From Candidatus Poribacteria bacterium (GTDB taxonomy: Bacteria > Poribacteria > WGA-4E > WGA-3G): a stretch of DNA of 33,398 bases. The stretch covers positions 643-34,040 of the forward strand of contig JAAXHI010000301.1 in assembly GCA_012270875.1 (NCBI GenBank), read 5' to 3'. Under the pieces are notes generated by a model, which did no database searches, was not told the DNA's origin, and was given only the letters and a program-made list of their open reading frames with translations. Positions 19,291 to 31,465 of this stretch are shown here, piece after piece; the first letter of the stretch is position 1; each line of letters begins with the position of its first letter. The translations under genes were made by a program, and so were the position numbers.

Positions 19291-19440
19291 GCACCCACAA
19301 CCTACGAGGTTAGGGCTTCGGTTTCATAGCGACTGCGGTTTTCTCATAGAGTCCATCGTCTTACTTTCGCTCCACCCGCAGGCGTTTCCCTGTAGTTTTC
19401 TACAGGCATATCGTTAGGTAACGGCTATCCCCGCCTGCAA
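19291..19440 (-). ncRNA. Predicted omega-RNA (reRNA) guide scaffold at the tnpB 3' end
   Basis: TnpB nucleases use a guide RNA made from the 3' end of tnpB to the element right end. Here the segment from the last tnpB codons to 19291 contains a perfect 7-bp hairpin with a 4-nt loop (19389-19406, CCTGTAG/CTACAGG), a conserved-looking GGTGGAGCGAAAGTAAG stretch, and the right-end hairpin 19294-19315. The guide would be the bases past 19291, starting in the GNAT remnant (TATCACCTTAACC). Seen: the hairpins and position. Inferred: the RNA itself; its 5' end is a guess. Confidence 0.55.
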
Positions 19441-20532
19441 TATGTTTAGCGCAGCGTTGATGTCTCTATCGTGATGTGTTCCACATTCAGGACATGTCCA
19501 CTGCCGATCATTCAATGTAAGTTTTTTGTTATGATACCCGCAAGCACTACACAGTTTCGTTGTAGCAGTCCATTGATCGACTTGACGGAAATCACGCTTA
19601 TGTTTTTGACACTTATATTTCAATATCTCAACAAACTCGTAGAAAGCAAGGTCAGAGACTTTGCGCCCCCACAGCCGTTTCATGCCCTCAAGGTTCAAAG
19701 CTTCAAGGACAATCGTATCAAACTTCTTACAGAGTTCACTCGCGAGTTGCCAATGGAAGTCTTTGCGTTGATTGCTAATTTTCCGATAGAGACGGGCGAG
19801 TTGCCTCACACACCACCACCAAGCGTTAGACCCTTTTTGCTTGCGACTCAATGCTTTGTTGAGAGACCGAAGTTTCTTCAAGTTAGATTTCAAAGGTTGT
19901 GGGTGTTGTATCTTTTCACCCGTGCTCAGTGTCAAAAATGCGTCTTTCATCCCGAAGTCTGCCCCAACGCTTTGACCTGTTGTCGGCAGCGGTCTAAAAT
20001 CTCTATAGGTTGTTGTGATACAAAGCCAATAGTCACCGCAAGTATCACGTTTGATGGTGATACGACTGATAGAACCGTGCCACTGGCGGTATTTGTGAAA
20101 CGTATAGGGCACTCTATCAAACTGCCACTTACGCGTATCAGGATTCCATTTGCGAAAAGTCAATGTGATACGATTGTTTTTCAGACACCAACCCGCGGGC
20201 CCTGGATAGGTGATAGATTTGAACTTATGTCTCGGCTTGATATGCGGTCTGCCACCAAGTTTCTTGAAAAAACGATCGTATGCATTATCAATACGCATCA
20301 ACTCTTGTTGCACCGCTTGACTTGGCAGTATCTTCCAGTGCGGGTGCGTCGTCCGTTTCAACGCTTTAAAGTGATTATCCATGGCATTATAATTCGCATA
20401 CGGCAAACCCGCTTTATAGCGTTGACGTTGCCACTCGTGGAAATACTTATGCACTTGCCACATATCGTCAAGCAGGTTGCCAATGCGTATGGTGTTAGAT
20501 TGTTTTCCCAACGGATATTTATATGTTTTCAT
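19414..20532 (-). CDS. tnpB: TnpB, RNA-guided nuclease of an IS200/IS605-type element
   Basis: A 372-residue full-length TnpB. The N-terminal part (1-185) has the helical and beta-barrel (wedge/REC) character of the family. The RuvC-like nuclease follows: GADFGMKDAFLTL with Asp192, IVLEALNLEGM with Glu277, and HDRDINAALNIL with Asp355/Asp357. Inserted before the last motif is a four-cysteine zinc finger, CSACGYHN and CPECG (Cys328, 331, 347, 350). All catalytic residues are present, so the protein is probably active. It should cut DNA guided by the RNA from its 3' end and help keep the element at its donor site. A consensus promoter lies at 20630-20658, and a large hairpin at 20575-20615 lies between promoter and gene. 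Confidence 0.95.
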   Translation of the reverse strand: MKTYKYPLGKQSNTIRIGNLLDDMWQVHKYFHEWQRQRYKAGLPYANYNAMDNHFKALKRTTHPHWKILPSQAVQQELMRIDNAYDRFFKKLGGRPHIKPRHKFKSITYPGPAGWCLKNNRITLTFRKWNPDTRKWQFDRVPYTFHKYRQWHGSISRITIKRDTCGDYWLCITTTYRDFRPLPTTGQSVGADFGMKDAFLTLSTGEKIQHPQPLKSNLKKLRSLNKALSRKQKGSNAWWWCVRQLARLYRKISNQRKDFHWQLASELCKKFDTIVLEALNLEGMKRLWGRKVSDLAFYEFVEILKYKCQKHKRDFRQVDQWTATTKLCSACGYHNKKLTLNDRQWTCPECGTHHDRDINAALNILQAGIAVT

Positions 20533-20695: not shown

Positions 20696-20715
20696 CCCCT
20701 ACCTAAAGGCAGGGG
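20696..20715. repeat. Left-end hairpin of the tnpB element
   Basis: CCCCTACC (20696-20703) pairs with GGCAGGGG (20708-20715) around TAAA, with one A-C mismatch. The CCTAAAGG-centred GC-rich hairpin is typical for ends of IS1341-type elements. The GNAT reading frame ends within it (stop at 20701-20699), which marks the junction with host DNA close to 20719. Confidence 0.65.
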
Positions 20716-20719
20716 GCTT

Positions 20720-20983
20720 GACGGGAAGATTGATAACGAAGAAGAATCCGTTTGGATCGAAATCGGATTGGTTGATAACGTTAGCATACGTATCTTGTGC
20801 GGTTCTACCTTTGTCTACGAAGGCGCTGTCCATGATTCGCGCCCAGTGTATTTCGTCACCTTTCTGATAGGTTCGGATGTGATAGCCATCAGGACACTGG
20901 CGTCTCGGCAGCTTCTCTAAACTGTGCAGGACCATTCTGAGTTGATCTTCCACTGTATTCTTTAACTTGAGACCTTCGTCCAC
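20720..20983 (-). pseudogene. N-terminal fragment of a GNAT acetyltransferase interrupted by the tnpB element
   Basis: The frame from ATG 20983 (or GTG 20953) encodes about 85 residues, including DQLRMVLHSLEKLPRRQ, GYHIRTYQKGDEIHWARIMD and GRTAQDTYANVI. These match residues 4-80 of the adjacent intact GNAT (RQLRMVRPNLENLP, GYGMRTYRKGDEVHWARIIS, ERTAQDTENEI). Homology stops after FFFVINLPV, where the element left-end hairpin begins and supplies a stop. The acetyl-CoA-binding motif A is missing, so this copy cannot work. Its tail is at 19192-19290. A tandem duplicate of the upstream gene. Confidence 0.85.
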
Positions 20984-21558
20984 AGTTCTGTAGGGAGTGT
21001 CTCTTTGACGTTTAGGATCTGTGCGGACATCGACGGGAGTCCCAATTTCTCAAAGATGTCCGACCACCGCTCTGGTTGTCCTTCTTCAACGTAAACAGGT
21101 ATGAACCCTAAATTCAGATAGGTTTTAATGGCGGGGATGCGGAAATCGTCGGTGTCCAACATCGAACATTTGAAGTTGTTGTCCCGAAAGTAGCAGAGGA
21201 CAGCGAGTGAGACCCATTTTCCGAGTTTGTGTCCTGTGTGTTCAGCGACAACGCCGACCATGTGCACATATCCGACCTCTTTTTCATCTACGGATTGCCG
21301 CCAGGCACAAGCAGTTCCGACGGGGATACCGCGATGCGTTGCGAAGTAGAATCCATCGGGCAGAAACACATCTCGGTTCGTAATTTCATTTTCTGTATCT
21401 TGTGCGGTGCGTTCTCTGCCACCGAACGAGTCACTAATAATACGCGCCCAGTGTACCTCATCCCCTTTGCGATAGGTGCGCATGCCGTAACCTACGGGAA
21501 GTTCAAGTTCCGGTAGATTTTCTAAATTAGGACGTACCATCCTGAGTTGTCGCGCCAT
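20962..21558 (-). CDS. GNAT family N-acetyltransferase
   Basis: A 198-residue protein. The N-terminal half (GYGMRTYRKGDEVHWARII) leads into the core at about 95-155. HMVGVVAEHTGHKLGKWVSLAVL is the acetyl-CoA pyrophosphate-binding motif A (cited in parts: VGVVAEHTGHKLGKW), and IPAIKTYLNLGFIPVYVEE is motif B with the usual LGF turn. It should transfer an acyl group from acetyl-CoA to an amine; the acceptor is unknown. AGAAGGAG lies 8 nt before the ATG, and an extended -10 promoter is at 21604-21632. The stop overlaps the start of the broken paralogue, and the old operon continued to the glycosyltransferase, hinting at modification of a sugar or its carrier. Confidence 0.85.
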   Translation of the reverse strand: MARQLRMVRPNLENLPELELPVGYGMRTYRKGDEVHWARIISDSFGGRERTAQDTENEITNRDVFLPDGFYFATHRGIPVGTACAWRQSVDEKEVGYVHMVGVVAEHTGHKLGKWVSLAVLCYFRDNNFKCSMLDTDDFRIPAIKTYLNLGFIPVYVEEGQPERWSDIFEKLGLPSMSAQILNVKETLPTELWTKVSS

Positions 21559-23349: not shown

Positions 23350-23374
23350 TGGCTGTCAGCGTATTAGCCGTCAG

Positions 23375-23405
23375 CCGTCGGGACGGTTTTTTCTACGAAA
23401 AAACC
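23375..23405 (+). terminator. Intrinsic terminator after aroB with overlapping second hairpin
   Basis: CCGTC-GG-GACGG (23375-23386) is followed at once by six T (23387-23392). The last GG and the T-run also form the 5' arm of a second, 9-bp stem: GGTTTTTTC (23385-23393) with GAAAAAACC (23397-23405). The two structures exclude each other. The A/T-rich second hairpin may be a remnant of a bidirectional terminator. Confidence 0.75.
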
Positions 23406-23514: not shown

Positions 23515-24660
23515 ATGATAAAAATAACGCAATGGATAGTCGTTATCTTAGTTTTATGCCTAAGCGTTAGTGTGGCATTTAGCCAAGGACTTGCGCCGCC
23601 ATCAAACGTCACGGCGATGGATACACCCAATGATAACGGATCCAGTATTACCATTAAATGGGACGCGGCAGTTGAGGGTAGCGGTATTAGTGGTTACCAA
23701 ATTCTGCGGCGGATTGCCGATGGTGAGCTTGAAACCATCGGAGACTTATTGCCCGCAGACGCAGGGGTCTATGTTGATTCAGCTATTGAGAAGGGGACTG
23801 CCTACACCTATATCGTGCGTGCTGTTAGTGAAACGGAGGCGACAGTAGATTCCGAACAGACTGTTCCGGTTGAGGGGACAGGCGAGTGGTTTCATACTGG
23901 CAAAATCCCGTTGCTTATTGCCATGCTCCTTTTTTCCGCAGCAATACTTTGGAATATTTATGATGCGCGAAGCGGTAAAGATATATTTGTCCGACGTATC
24001 CCTGGGCTTGAGGCGGTTGATGAAGCCATCGGTAGAGCGACAGAAATGGGACGTTCCATTCTATACAGTACAGGAATGGCGGGTGTCAGTGGTGTCGCTA
24101 CGATTGCGAGTATGACGATTTTGGGACAGGTCGCTCGGCGCACAGCGGATTATGAGACTGCATTACGTGTTCCATGCCGGGACCCAATTGTACTAAATGT
24201 CGTGCGTGAAATGGTAAAAACTGCTTATCTTGAGGAAGGTCGTCCGGATGCCTATAATGAAGATGACATCTTTTTTATCACCGAAAGCCAATTCGCGTAC
24301 GCTGCGGGTGTAGAAGGCATGATGCTCCGCGAGAAACCGGCGGCGATATTTCTACAAGGTACATTTTACGCTGAATCTCTCATCCTTGCGGAGACCGGTA
24401 ATTCTGTTGGTGCTATTCAGATCGCTGGAACGGATTCGGAACACCAACTCCCATTTTTCATCGCCGCGTGCGATTATACCTTAATTGGCGAAGAACTTTA
24501 TGCTGCGAGTGCGTACCTTTCCAGAGAACCGATGTTGCTCGGAAGTCTGAGAGGTCAGGATTGGGGAAAGTTACTTATTTTCGCTGCTATCGTATTGGGT
24601 GTGGTGCTTGAATTATTTGGCGTTAGTTGGATCACAACCCTCTTACAGCGGGTAAGTTAG
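23515..24660 (+). CDS. FN3 and DUF6754-like membrane protein (first gene of four-gene membrane cluster)
   Basis: A 381-residue protein starting at ATG 23515, chosen over the earlier TTG because it gives a clean signal peptide (IVVILVLCLSVSVAFS, cleaved near 24) and follows GAGGAA. Residues 27-118 form a fibronectin type III domain (PPSNVTAMD, SITIKWDAA, SGYQILRR, TAYTYIVRAVSE). A membrane helix spans 130-148, then a 200-residue domain containing AIGRATEMGRSILYSTGMAGVSG in parts (GRATEMGRSILYS), and a last helix spans 352-372. The middle domain matches my memory of DUF6754, of unknown function. The FN3 domain should lie outside and the large domain inside. Three small membrane-protein genes follow with tiny gaps, implying a complex. 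Confidence 0.8.
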   Translation: MIKITQWIVVILVLCLSVSVAFSQGLAPPSNVTAMDTPNDNGSSITIKWDAAVEGSGISGYQILRRIADGELETIGDLLPADAGVYVDSAIEKGTAYTYIVRAVSETEATVDSEQTVPVEGTGEWFHTGKIPLLIAMLLFSAAILWNIYDARSGKDIFVRRIPGLEAVDEAIGRATEMGRSILYSTGMAGVSGVATIASMTILGQVARRTADYETALRVPCRDPIVLNVVREMVKTAYLEEGRPDAYNEDDIFFITESQFAYAAGVEGMMLREKPAAIFLQGTFYAESLILAETGNSVGAIQIAGTDSEHQLPFFIAACDYTLIGEELYAASAYLSREPMLLGSLRGQDWGKLLIFAAIVLGVVLELFGVSWITTLLQRVS

Positions 24661-24668
24661 GAGGTTTT

Positions 24669-25319
24669 ATGAAGCGACAAGTCCCTTTAGTTCTCTGCTT
24701 TGTTTTCGGGATTGTAATGATCCTCACACAATTCAGCCCGCATTCAGTTTCGCAATGGGTCTATGAGGAAGTCATCAGTTGGGTGTTGATTATTGGGCCT
24801 TTTGCGCTGGTATTGGCAACGGTGACGCTGATTCAGACGCATGCGACGCGAATTCGGCGTCGAACAGAACATTGGCAGTACAGTTTTGTTGTATTTGCGG
24901 GTCTTATTATAATGGTTCTGATCGGTCTTTTCTTTACACCACAGAATTCTGTATTTGAGTGGTTATACAACAACGTCCAGTTGCCGATGGATGCGACGAT
25001 GTTTTCGCTGCTTGCCTTCTTCATCGCCTCAGCCGCCTACCGCGCTTTCCGCGCCCGAACATTTGAAGCAAGTTTACTATTGATTACTGCTCTGATTGTC
25101 ATGATGGGGAATGTGCCCGTTGGCGATCTTATCTGGAATACAGTATTATTTTGGGTCCCCTTGGAGGATGGTGCTTCTTGGTGGCGGCAGTGGATTTTAG
25201 ATAACCCGAATCTTTCAGCGAGACGTGGCATTATTCTCGGTGTTAGTTTAGGTGTAATTTCACAGTCTATCCGAATTATCTTGGGTATTGAACGCTCGTA
25301 TCTTGGTGGAGGAGATTAA
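24669..25319 (+). CDS. Six-helix membrane protein of unknown function (second gene of cluster)
   Basis: A 216-residue protein starting at ATG 24669, directly after AGGAGG and 8 nt past the previous stop; the longer frame from 24627 would overlap that gene and lacks a ribosome site. Hydrophobic helices lie at about 5-21, 36-57, 71-90, 109-126, 132-148 and 186-206. A short basic loop HATRIRRRTEHW (58-69) and RAFRAR (125-130) should face the cytoplasm. Conserved-looking residues include GNVPVGDLIWN and the tryptophans WWRQWIL in a loop before the last helix. I do not recognise a family. Its place between two other membrane genes suggests a subunit of the same complex. Confidence 0.75.
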   Translation: MKRQVPLVLCFVFGIVMILTQFSPHSVSQWVYEEVISWVLIIGPFALVLATVTLIQTHATRIRRRTEHWQYSFVVFAGLIIMVLIGLFFTPQNSVFEWLYNNVQLPMDATMFSLLAFFIASAAYRAFRARTFEASLLLITALIVMMGNVPVGDLIWNTVLFWVPLEDGASWWRQWILDNPNLSARRGIILGVSLGVISQSIRIILGIERSYLGGGD

Positions 25320-25321
25320 AT

Positions 25322-26116
25322 ATGGATCGGCGATTTGTCTTTATCTTGGTTGCGTTGGCGGTTATTATTCCGATGTTGTTCTCTGTCAATTTACCCGTCT
25401 CAGTATCTGAACCGACGCAGAAATTCTACGATTATGTTGAGGCTCTTCCTGCCGGGTCAACGATCATGGTTGCCTTTGATTATGGTCCCTCCTCTTTAGC
25501 CGAGCTGAATCCTATGGCAAAAGCATTACTGAAACAGTGTTTCGATAGAGACATACGGGTCATAGCTATTACACTTATTGTAGATGCACCTACCTTGGCA
25601 AGTGCCCTTATACAAGAAGTCGCTACAGAGAAAGGGGCAGTGGAAGGTGAAGATTATGTCTTTTTAGGCTACCGTCCTGGTGCTGTGCAAGTGATGCTTG
25701 GCATGGGGACGGACATCGCGAGTGTGTATGATACGGATTACAACGGGACAGCGATTAGTGAGATCCCGATGATGCAAAATATTACGAACTATGACCAAAT
25801 TGATCTTCTGGTTGATTTCGCCTCCAGCGATACGGTAGAGTCATGGATTATCTACGCGAATGTCCGGTACAACCAAAAGATCGCCGCTGGGGTCACAGGC
25901 GTTATTATCGCACAGATGTTTCCGTATCTGCAGACTGGACAGTTAGTTGGTTTGCTGTCTGGAATTTTGGGAGCGGCTGAGTACGAGAACCTTGTAGGTG
26001 CTCCTGCGAAAGGGATGCAATGGATAAATGTAGAATCGTTTGTCCATCTGTTGATTGTCGGACTGGTAATCATTGGCAACATAACTTACTTTATTCATAG
26101 GACACGGGAGGAATAG
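25322..26116 (+). CDS. Two-helix membrane-anchored protein with a large soluble domain (third gene of cluster)
   Basis: A 264-residue protein starting 2 nt after the preceding stop, with GGAGGAG just upstream. One helix at 5-22 and a C-terminal helix at about 240-257 flank a 210-residue domain. The domain alternates strands and helices like a Rossmann-type fold: STIMVAFDYGPSS, DIRVIAITLIVDAP, EDYVFLGYRPGAVQVML and DQIDLLVDFASSD. The late stretch PYLQTGQLVGLLSGILGAAEYE weakly resembles the end of the first gene's domain. No signature of a known binding protein or enzyme is clear. The domain would sit on one side of the membrane as a sensor, ligand-binding or assembly part; the function is unknown. 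Confidence 0.72.
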   Translation: MDRRFVFILVALAVIIPMLFSVNLPVSVSEPTQKFYDYVEALPAGSTIMVAFDYGPSSLAELNPMAKALLKQCFDRDIRVIAITLIVDAPTLASALIQEVATEKGAVEGEDYVFLGYRPGAVQVMLGMGTDIASVYDTDYNGTAISEIPMMQNITNYDQIDLLVDFASSDTVESWIIYANVRYNQKIAAGVTGVIIAQMFPYLQTGQLVGLLSGILGAAEYENLVGAPAKGMQWINVESFVHLLIVGLVIIGNITYFIHRTREE

Positions 26117-26120
26117 TTTG

Positions 26121-26780
26121 ATGGATTTATGGAGTTTAATTGGAATTTGGGTTGCAGCGTTTCTGACACTCTCCATCTACAGCGTTCTTTATCAAGACAA
26201 CCCGTTCTACCGATTTGCCGAACACCTTTTTGTAGGCGTATCTGTTGGGTATGGGATTGTCCTTTCTATCTATCAAGGACTTGTCCCCTTTGCCTTTAAA
26301 CCGTTATGGGAGACGGTAGAAACTGGCGCGCCAGAAGGTTTCATTAAACTAATTCCGATCGGTATCGGTTTGCTCTTTTTTGCGCGCCTGTCCCCTCGTC
26401 ATACGTGGTTAATCCGCTACCCGATTGCTATTCTTATCGGATTTGGTTCGGGAATCGCAATTCCGAATGTGCTGCGCGCGAACATATTTGAACAGACGCG
26501 TGGAACACTTGCTCCGTTTGCAGAGATTGCCGCGGGAACGCTCACGGGTTGGGGTATTTTCGAGGCAGTCCTTATGGTTGCTGGTGTTATTTGCACACTG
26601 ACCTATTTTTTCTTTGCTGTAGAGCATCGGGGACCTGTCAAATGGGTTTCAAAGGTCGGCATCGCTTTCCTTATGATCGGATTCGGTTCGGCGTTTGGGA
26701 ATACTGTTATGGGACGTGTCGCGTTGCTTATTCAACGGGTCGACTTCTTATTAAGCGATTGGTTGCACATAATTTCTTAA
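26121..26780 (+). CDS. Six-helix membrane protein of unknown function (fourth gene of cluster)
   Basis: A 219-residue protein starting at ATG 26121 (GGGAGG 9 nt upstream), 4 nt after the previous stop. Hydrophobic helices lie at about 4-23, 34-52, 74-90, 100-117, 143-166 and 176-195. The C-terminal third has a glycine-rich FGSAFGNTVMGRVALLIQR (188-206), which looks like a conserved functional segment because it ends a helix with an Arg and a polar pair. An early loop carries YQDNPFYRFAEHLFVG with charged residues at the membrane edge. No family is recognised. It closes the cluster; a repeat-rich spacer without genes follows. Confidence 0.72.
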   Translation: MDLWSLIGIWVAAFLTLSIYSVLYQDNPFYRFAEHLFVGVSVGYGIVLSIYQGLVPFAFKPLWETVETGAPEGFIKLIPIGIGLLFFARLSPRHTWLIRYPIAILIGFGSGIAIPNVLRANIFEQTRGTLAPFAEIAAGTLTGWGIFEAVLMVAGVICTLTYFFFAVEHRGPVKWVSKVGIAFLMIGFGSAFGNTVMGRVALLIQRVDFLLSDWLHIIS

Positions 26781-26794
26781 TCTTTATGGGAATG

Positions 26795-26886
26795 GCAATC
26801 GGCTATCAGCAATCGGCTATCGGTAAGAATGGCTTTCGGAAATCTTCGGCTATCGGAAATCTTCAGTAAAGAGACGTTGGGATTTT
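26795..26886. repeat. Degenerate short-repeat spacer (GCAATCGGCTATC and TCGGAAATCTTC units)
   Basis: GCAATCGGCTATC occurs at 26795-26807 and 26809-26821, and TCGGAAATCTTC at 26836-26847 and 26853-26864. The stretch ends with AGACGTTGGGATTTT (26872-26886), which recurs exactly at 31616-31630 in another spacer. No gene is seen in the whole 26781-26962 spacer. Its role is unknown. Confidence 0.75.
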
Positions 26887-29215: not shown

Positions 29216-31465
29216 CTAACTGGATTGTTCCTGTTCTTTAATTCGCCTTGCGTTGTGCACGAGTGTTAACAATTCTTCGCCGCGCTTCTCGGCTTGCGCT
29301 TCATCTTTTGCGACAACCTCTGGATGCTGTTGCAAGATGTCTTTAAGCGTCTTCGAGACGGTCTGTAGGCAACCCTCTTTCACCCAGAAACTCTCCCGTA
29401 GGATTTCGGCGAATTGTGCCATAGTTGCAGCAAACTGAAGTCCCGGCGAGGTATCCTCAAACTTGGCTTTAAGGTCTTCAACAGCGAATTTCTCACTGAC
29501 TTCCGTTACCTTTTGCGTGTCGGGATCTTCATACCGGATGGAGACCTTCGCGAGTCTGCCACTATCAACCCCTTTGTTGAGTTTAACTTCATAGAGTGCG
29601 GTGACGCTGTGTCCGGATCCGATTTCGCCAGCATCTGCTTCGTCGTTACGGAAATCCTCATGCTTCATCTGTCGGCTTTCATAGCCAACCAGCCGGAACT
29701 GCCTCACGGTATCTGGATTGAATTTAACCTGGACCTTCGCATCCTTCGCGATGGTCTGTAGTGTTCCCGTGAGATTCTCAACAAAGATGCGACGTGCCTC
29801 GTTACGGGTATCGACATAGGCGTAATTCCCGTTGCCTTTCTTCGCGAGTTCCTCCATGAGGGTGTCGTTGTAATTCCCCATGCCGAAACCGACTGTGGTT
29901 AAGAAGATGTTATCGTTATCAACGTAGCTGCGGATTTCCTTGAGAAGCACTTCTGGGTCTGTTACACCTTCGTTCGCAACGCCATCTGAACAGAGAATCA
30001 CACGATTGATGCAATCGCTTTCTGCATTCTTGCGGGCGAGTTCATATCCTTTGTGAATCCCGTCTTCAACATTTGTCACACCTTCTGGACACAGCGAATC
30101 AATCCGTTCCAAGATGTGTTCCCGATTCACAACACTGGTATGTGGGAGGACAACCCGAGCGTCGGTGCCGTAGACGACAATGCCAATCTTGTCGGCGGGA
30201 CGGAGTTGTTTGACCAAAAGCCGCAACGCCTTTTTTACCAACCCCAACCGATTTTCCATGCCCATTGACCCGGAGACATCGATTACGAAAGTGAGTACAG
30301 CGTCCTGGCGATCAACATCTGGAACGACGCGTCCTTGAATGCCTATGCGTAGCAATTGGGATCGCTTGCGTTCACTAAATTTTGAAGGCGCGCCTTCAAG
30401 ATGCAGTGCGAAAGCGGCATCGGTTGGCGGGGTATAGTCGTAATCAAAAGCGTTGATGAATTCCTCGACCCGCACGGCTTCTGTCGGTGGCAGATTGCCG
30501 TCTCGGAGATAGCGACGCATTACGGCATAGGAGGCACTATCGGCATCCATACCAAAAGTCGACTTGTTATCATCTTCTGGGTCAATAAATGGGTTTGTGC
30601 CGTGTCCCTTGAAGAAGACATCGCGGTAAGCAGCTCCATTGGGCGGGTTTAATTGTGCTGATGTTGGGACAATTGCACTATACGCAAAGGATTCCATGAC
30701 CTGCGAGAGCCGCTTCCGTTTGAGAGTAGGCCTATTAAACGTTAATGGTCTTGTGTCATTGATAGGTACGTCACGCAAAACCAGTCTTTCTTCATTGAAA
30801 ACGTTATCCGCGAAGGCATAGCGGCAGACGAAATCTGAATCTAATTCGACATCAGAGACATGATAAGCCACGCTCGCGCTTGCGTGGTTTGTTCGTGTAA
30901 TCGTAACGTCGTGCGATGGGGACTCAATGTCTCCAAGTGCGTCCTTACCTTCAATGTCTATTGACATCAAGAAACTTTCAACAGGTTGGTTGGCTCGTAG
31001 ATGATGCGTGTACACTAAACTGTCGTCGATTTCCTCGGTCTGTTCAGTATATTGGATTTGAATCCGGCACGCATCATCGGCAGCAATCGGTGGGATTTCT
31101 GCTTGCAATGCGGAAGTCCCGATTGTCTGTAAGATTTGCAAGTCCTGCGCTTGGAGAATGCGTTTATAGAACTCGGTTAACTTCTGTCCTCTCAGCAATT
31201 GTGGTTCCGTGAGATTGCCACTAATGCGAATCTCGGTATTTTTTTGTTTCGCTCCATCCGGTAGTGGGAAAAGAAAAAGACCACCGATAGGGACGTTATT
31301 TGGGTTGCTGAAAATGAGATCTACTTCTGTTGTTGCTAACCGATCATCATCAATTGAGACGTTCACGTGATAACGCTCAATCATCAGTTTTTGAAAGTGA
31401 GATGCTTGCGTCTCTGATGGGACAAAAAGACTTCTCGCCAGTGTGTAGAATTCTAATTGGTTCAT
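29216..31465 (-). CDS. VIT and VWA (YfbK-like) protein
   Basis: A 749-residue protein joining two modules. Residues about 20-180 form a VIT domain (TTEVDLIFSNPNNVPIGGLF and FPLPDGA), as in inter-alpha-trypsin inhibitor heavy chains. Residues 280-745 match YfbK: an N-terminal unit with NPFIDPEDDN and STFGMDADSASYAVMRRYL, a von Willebrand A domain with MIDAS DVSGSMG (396-402) and later VILCSDGVANEG, and a C-terminal DUF3520-type unit containing KVQVKFNPDTVRQFRLVGYE. No signal peptide is seen, so it may be cytoplasmic. VWA proteins mediate metal-dependent protein contacts; the partner is unknown. AAAGGAG precedes the ATG. A shorter paralogue lies directly upstream. Confidence 0.9.
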   Translation of the reverse strand: MNQLEFYTLARSLFVPSETQASHFQKLMIERYHVNVSIDDDRLATTEVDLIFSNPNNVPIGGLFLFPLPDGAKQKNTEIRISGNLTEPQLLRGQKLTEFYKRILQAQDLQILQTIGTSALQAEIPPIAADDACRIQIQYTEQTEEIDDSLVYTHHLRANQPVESFLMSIDIEGKDALGDIESPSHDVTITRTNHASASVAYHVSDVELDSDFVCRYAFADNVFNEERLVLRDVPINDTRPLTFNRPTLKRKRLSQVMESFAYSAIVPTSAQLNPPNGAAYRDVFFKGHGTNPFIDPEDDNKSTFGMDADSASYAVMRRYLRDGNLPPTEAVRVEEFINAFDYDYTPPTDAAFALHLEGAPSKFSERKRSQLLRIGIQGRVVPDVDRQDAVLTFVIDVSGSMGMENRLGLVKKALRLLVKQLRPADKIGIVVYGTDARVVLPHTSVVNREHILERIDSLCPEGVTNVEDGIHKGYELARKNAESDCINRVILCSDGVANEGVTDPEVLLKEIRSYVDNDNIFLTTVGFGMGNYNDTLMEELAKKGNGNYAYVDTRNEARRIFVENLTGTLQTIAKDAKVQVKFNPDTVRQFRLVGYESRQMKHEDFRNDEADAGEIGSGHSVTALYEVKLNKGVDSGRLAKVSIRYEDPDTQKVTEVSEKFAVEDLKAKFEDTSPGLQFAATMAQFAEILRESFWVKEGCLQTVSKTLKDILQQHPEVVAKDEAQAEKRGEELLTLVHNARRIKEQEQSS

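Follow-up and report, generated by a model that had tools for sequence, protein, structure and literature searches.

What four closely packed genes for membrane proteins do in a Candidatus Poribacteria genome is the question raised by this locus, which lies within the window (the whole stretch of DNA analysed, 33,398 nucleotides). The four co-directional open reading frames (ORFs), here termed P1 to P4, lie on the forward strand. P1 (23515-24660, 381 aa) carries a signal peptide, an FN3 domain, a transmembrane (TM) helix, a DUF6754 region and a C-terminal TM helix, P2 (24669-25319, 216 aa) has about six TM helices, P3 (25322-26116, 264 aa) has N- and C-terminal TM helices flanking a Rossmann-like domain, and P4 (26121-26780, 219 aa) again has about six TM helices; its start is taken as the ATG at 26121, the ORF list having a TTG three bases upstream. 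An earlier note on this DNA gave intergenic gaps of 8, 2 and 4 nt, which agree with the ORF coordinates, and its two six-helix proteins and one two-helix protein agree with family-averaged hydropathy (two TM segments plus a signal peptide in P1, about six in P2, two in P3 and about six in P4). It also credited all four genes with strong ribosome sites. This is so for P2 (taggaggtttt-ATG), P3 (ggtggaggagattaaat-ATG) and P4 (cgggaggaatagtttg-ATG), but the site of P1 is a weaker gagg. All four genes are under purifying selection, with dN/dS of 0.05-0.15. A terminator-like hairpin with a T-run (23373-23388, forward strand), located between aroB and P1, suggests that P1-P4 form their own transcription unit, although this is a consensus match of a kind common by chance (8 such sites in the region against 5.2 expected).

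P1 had been described as an FN3/DUF6754-like protein, and comparison with PF20539 (DUF6754) identifies it as a full family member, with a score of 407 bits against a curated cut-off of 27 bits and a match spanning profile positions 3-256 of 257. The DUF6754 region (aa 123-376; 23881-24642, forward strand) contains the near-invariant motifs ETGN, GAIQIAGT, QLPFF and CDYTLIGEE, and PF20539 was matched by all 47 P1 relatives scanned. The FN3 domain occupies aa 28-107 (23596-23835, forward strand); its fn3 Pfam score is just under the cut-off (23.2 vs 25), and its identity is backed by profile comparison and by fold. FN3 is absent from the short P1 proteins of Armatimonadota, which makes it an optional N-terminal add-on. 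The single extracytoplasmic FN3 domain claimed for this cluster is thus present in the window, but among relatives the outer part of P1 is variable (none, FN3, or LysM plus FN3) while DUF6754 is constant. In two Poribacteria genomes (G037 and G040) a second P1 consists of two wall-binding LysM domains followed by an FN3-like part and DUF6754 (L151 7843-9798; L162 8421-10379), and these LysM domains support an extracytoplasmic N-terminus of P1. Positive-inside loop charges place the DUF6754 domain inside, and on hydropathy and loop charge it is probably cytoplasmic. The structure model of the DUF6754 half has low confidence and was too weak for a fold to be assigned through the PDB, where the matches derive from FN3. 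Long P1 ORFs of 1108 and 1190 aa were considered as fusions and judged to be stop-poor, GC-rich extensions. As read from the sequence, the second-copy clusters with LysM are flanked on one side by peptide ABC transporter-like genes and on the other by surE-, DUF368-, NAD kinase-, aroE-, zapA- and MoxR-like genes.

None of P2, P3 and P4 matched a family in Pfam or NCBIfam. When 20-21 relatives of each were compared with Pfam, P2 and P4 each gave a single weak match in one relative and P3 gave none; P2 and P4 likewise had no match among PDB chains, Nqr subunits included. P1-P4 do not, then, fall into unrelated known families (Pfam, NCBIfam, PDB), and the statement that none has a known role holds, DUF6754 being the sole named family among them in Pfam and NCBIfam and itself without a function. 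P2 shares the conserved motif F-x3-AFFIASAAxRxFRxR-x4-E with its relatives, and P4 the C-terminal motif M-x2-FGxxFGxTVM-x-R-x2-LL-x2-R. Hydropathy and an AlphaFold model (pLDDT 84, pTM 0.78) bear out P3 as a two-helix protein with a soluble Rossmann-like domain (aa 30-230; 25409-26011, forward strand). The search for a known fold returned generic Rossmann matches only, with TM-scores of at most 0.38 over the query. By hydropathy and loop charge this domain is probably extracytoplasmic, while the loop charges of P2 fit an N-in and those of P4 an N-out orientation. Common ancestry of P1 and P3, proposed from a likeness of their late segments, comes down to a weak hint: the two domains have a similar beta-alpha order, and profile-profile comparison gives an E value of 0.008 with a probability of 5%, a level that 1 of 60 block shuffles reaches.

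Relatives of P1-P4 occur in Poribacteria, Planctomycetota and Armatimonadota. PF20539 is present in 57/60, 76/294 and 173/201 genomes of these phyla, respectively, and in 0/14 control genomes. Far from being rarely adjacent, the four genes keep the order P1-P2-P3-P4 in 65 of the 71 sampled loci with 3 kb or more of sequence downstream (29/29 in Poribacteria, 18/22 in Planctomycetota and 18/20 in Armatimonadota), with intergenic gaps typically between -4 and 10 nt. Because the cluster is conserved in three phyla, a chance arrangement is excluded. Two of the six exceptions (L124 and L141) are gene-picking artefacts and the other four (L116, L117, L143 and L168) have P1 without P2-P4 nearby; those from Planctomycetota (L116, L117 and L168) indicate that the module need not always stay whole. 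At L110, L123 and L179 there are either copies of P1 in tandem or two full P1-P4 sets. No P1 was found on plasmids (72,556 searched) and no relative in viral contigs, and a mobile or viral element was accordingly rejected.

Directly upstream of P1 at six loci (L155, L130, L131, L133, L134 and L179) stands a second set of genes, c5-c7-c10-c3, which, whole or in part, precedes P1 at many loci of Armatimonadota and Planctomycetota and at two of Poribacteria (L155 and L157). At L179, c5-c7-c10-c3-P1-P2-P3-P4 is followed by a second P1-P2-P3-P4, and the lone P1 of L116 and L117 adjoins c3. The c5 product has a TM helix and a small soluble part; the other three proteins are about 110 aa (c7), 600 aa (c10) and 375 aa (c3) long. 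c10 is an ASKHA ATPase of the MutL/GlmL family (PF13941, 434 bits; cut-off 27). Between phyla it is conserved at 59-72%, and its phosphate and adenosine motifs (DCGSTTTK, DIGGATTD and GSGGVLSHAP) are intact; it stays under the NCBIfam cut-offs for GlmL (238 against 475), Or-4 (220 against 600) and TIGR01319 (182 against 204). c3 comprises a barrel-sandwich stretch, an unmatched middle and a weak KOW-like end, and may be a scaffold-like protein. Neither c10 nor c3 led to a counterpart system among solved structures, and PADLOC had no match for P1-P4, c10 or c3, so that an anti-phage defence system was also rejected. Paralogues with the c10 ATPase domain and the c3 domain in a single ORF lie at L177 (775-3249, reverse strand, 824 aa) and L178 (700-2808, reverse strand), in genomes that also have normal, separate c10 and c3. 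An additional neighbour cluster, c14, was judged to be an artefact of gene picking, its ORFs lying antisense to c10.

The two blocks are not always neighbours. In G151 and G185 a c7-c10-c3 block lies far from P1-P4, and most Poribacteria of the window's genus likewise carry c10 and c3 apart from P1-P4. In the window's own genome both are unlinked to P1-P4: c10, 78% identical to that of L155, is on contig C212 and c3 is split across the ends of contigs C567 and C418. No c5 or c7 was found beside c10 in this genus, and c3 occurs in 52/60 genomes related to the window's. Four genomes (G037, G040, G042 and G057) have an extra P1 by P1 count, and c3 is single in all of them.

Presence and absence nevertheless go together. 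Among 294 Planctomycetota, P1 occurs in 76, c3 in 71 and c10 in 73 genomes, with P1 and c10 common to 69, P1 and c3 to 68 and all three present in 67 (Fisher p about 1e-53), while among 201 Armatimonadota P1 and c10 are found together in 168 and neither in 17 (p 2e-13); these p-values ignore genome kinship and hence overstate independence. The adjacency of c10-c3 and P1-P4 in three phyla stands apart from them. In the 67 Planctomycetota with all three genes, the distance from c3 to P1 is at most 3.5 kb in 46 genomes and that from c3 to c10 at most 5 kb in 56; the two blocks are unlinked in 17. The set is near-universal in Poribacteria and Armatimonadota and near all-or-none in Planctomycetota, where incomplete assemblies could account for the genomes with an incomplete set.

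The case from genomics for a single complex of P1-P4 and c10/c3 is good, and the set probably forms a single ATP-driven cell-envelope device. The multi-subunit membrane machine suggested in the earlier note gains from the conserved gene order and from the lack of matches to unrelated families, but it covers only half of the set, c10, c3, c5 and c7 having been missed. The reading somewhat favoured here is that P1-P4 are the membrane module of an ATP-driven envelope complex, whose other half, on the cytosolic side, would consist of c10 as the ASKHA ATPase, c3 with its barrel-sandwich domain, the small protein c7 and c5, which is anchored in the membrane. P1 may contact the cell wall or a glycan outside through FN3 or LysM, with DUF6754 serving inside as the docking site for c10-c3. 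ATP turnover by c10 would then cause a change that is relayed via P1 to the P2-P4 core and the outer Rossmann domain of P3, the output most likely being the moving or placing of an envelope component. A more tentative proposal, rather doubtful at this level of detail, is that the set represents a novel envelope machine in which an actin-like (ASKHA) ATPase, and not an ABC or AAA motor, works a wall-contacting FN3/LysM complex. The type IV pilus alignment complex PilM-PilN-PilO-PilP, where an actin-like ATPase inside acts on anchored envelope proteins, offers an analogy to c10 and P1-P4 in plan only; no Pfam match to the PilM, PilN, PilO or PilP families was found in P1-P4, c10, c3, c5 or c7.

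The chief rivals to this two-module complex are a sensor and a reactivating chaperone. As a trans-envelope sensor, the set would carry no cargo; P1 (through FN3 or LysM) or the Rossmann domain of P3 would sense the state of the wall or a ligand and control the ATP cycle of c10. The way in which the outer part of P1 varies around an unchanging DUF6754 is receptor-like, and response-regulator/HD-GYP genes follow P4 at four Armatimonadota loci (L130, L132, L135 and L138), although this is a large common family whose position there may be due to chance. However, two strongly conserved six-helix subunits exceed the needs of a simple sensor, and in Pfam the conserved set shows no output domain of the kinase, cyclase or DNA-binding kind, which makes this explanation unlikely.

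Less likely again is that c10 is a GlmL-type reactivating chaperone and that what it repairs, P1-P4, is an enzyme or cofactor system bound to the membrane. The family membership of c10 points in this direction, its ASKHA ATPase domain being that of the GlmL/MutL accessory ATPases (PF13941, NF040745, NF040744 and TIGR01319), which serve glutamate mutase and ornithine aminomutase. However, c10 is about 130 aa longer than these, it is linked to membrane genes and no mutase accompanies it: glutamate mutase E (PF06368) occurs in 5/294 Planctomycetota and in 0 of the 73 with c10, which excludes the glutamate-mutase version of this explanation in that phylum. Nor was a B12-binding domain found in P1-P4, c3, c5 or c7. 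The weakest alternative, that P1-P4 and c10-c3 are two separate ancient systems sharing genomes and operons by common descent only, would suit the unlinked blocks of the window's genus and of some Planctomycetota, but is made improbable by their joint presence and absence across Planctomycetota and their adjacency in three phyla.

Other known systems resemble the two-module complex in part. The Rnf/Nqr redox pumps share with it two six-helix subunits and an RnfC_N/NqrA-like barrel-sandwich match in c3, which is at or below the cut-off and confined to one short stretch, but full-length RnfC/NqrA and NqrB/D/E-type subunits were not found. No ABC transporter family was found by Pfam among P1-P4, c10, c3, c5 and c7. 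Judged against pilus, ABC, defence and solved-structure counterparts, no described type of system appears to fit P1-P4 with c10-c3, an assessment that may change once their function is known. The open-licence literature, outside which most subscription journals lie, yielded no paper naming DUF6754, PF20539, PF13941 or the GlmL family, and the operon partners of DUF6754 and the association with c10/c3 appear undescribed. A gene set present in 57/60 Poribacteria and 173/201 Armatimonadota sampled has hitherto been without a described function, and joining the DUF6754 module, the GlmL-like ATPase and c3 would turn four isolated unknowns into a single testable system. The GlmL/MutL ATPase family would thereby gain a role beyond mutase repair, and a true envelope machine would be a basic cell-surface component in little-studied phyla.

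The surroundings of the cluster hold several further features. Upstream, a 372-aa ORF (19414-20532, reverse strand) resembles an IS605-type OrfB/TnpB protein ending in a CxxC zinc finger, and a GNAT acetyltransferase gene is accompanied by a shorter ORF repeating its N-terminal part (20699-20983 and 20962-21558, reverse strand), apparently a truncated tandem copy. Downstream are two adjacent VWA/YfbK-type proteins (PF12450, PF12034; 29216-31465 and 31763-33385, reverse strand), probably tandem paralogues, of which only the first (29216-31465) matched a VIT domain. Right after P4, short direct repeats of ATCGGCTATC lie at 26798-26854; the window holds 6 matches to this sequence against 1.9 expected by shuffling, and 1 of 100 shuffles reaches 6.
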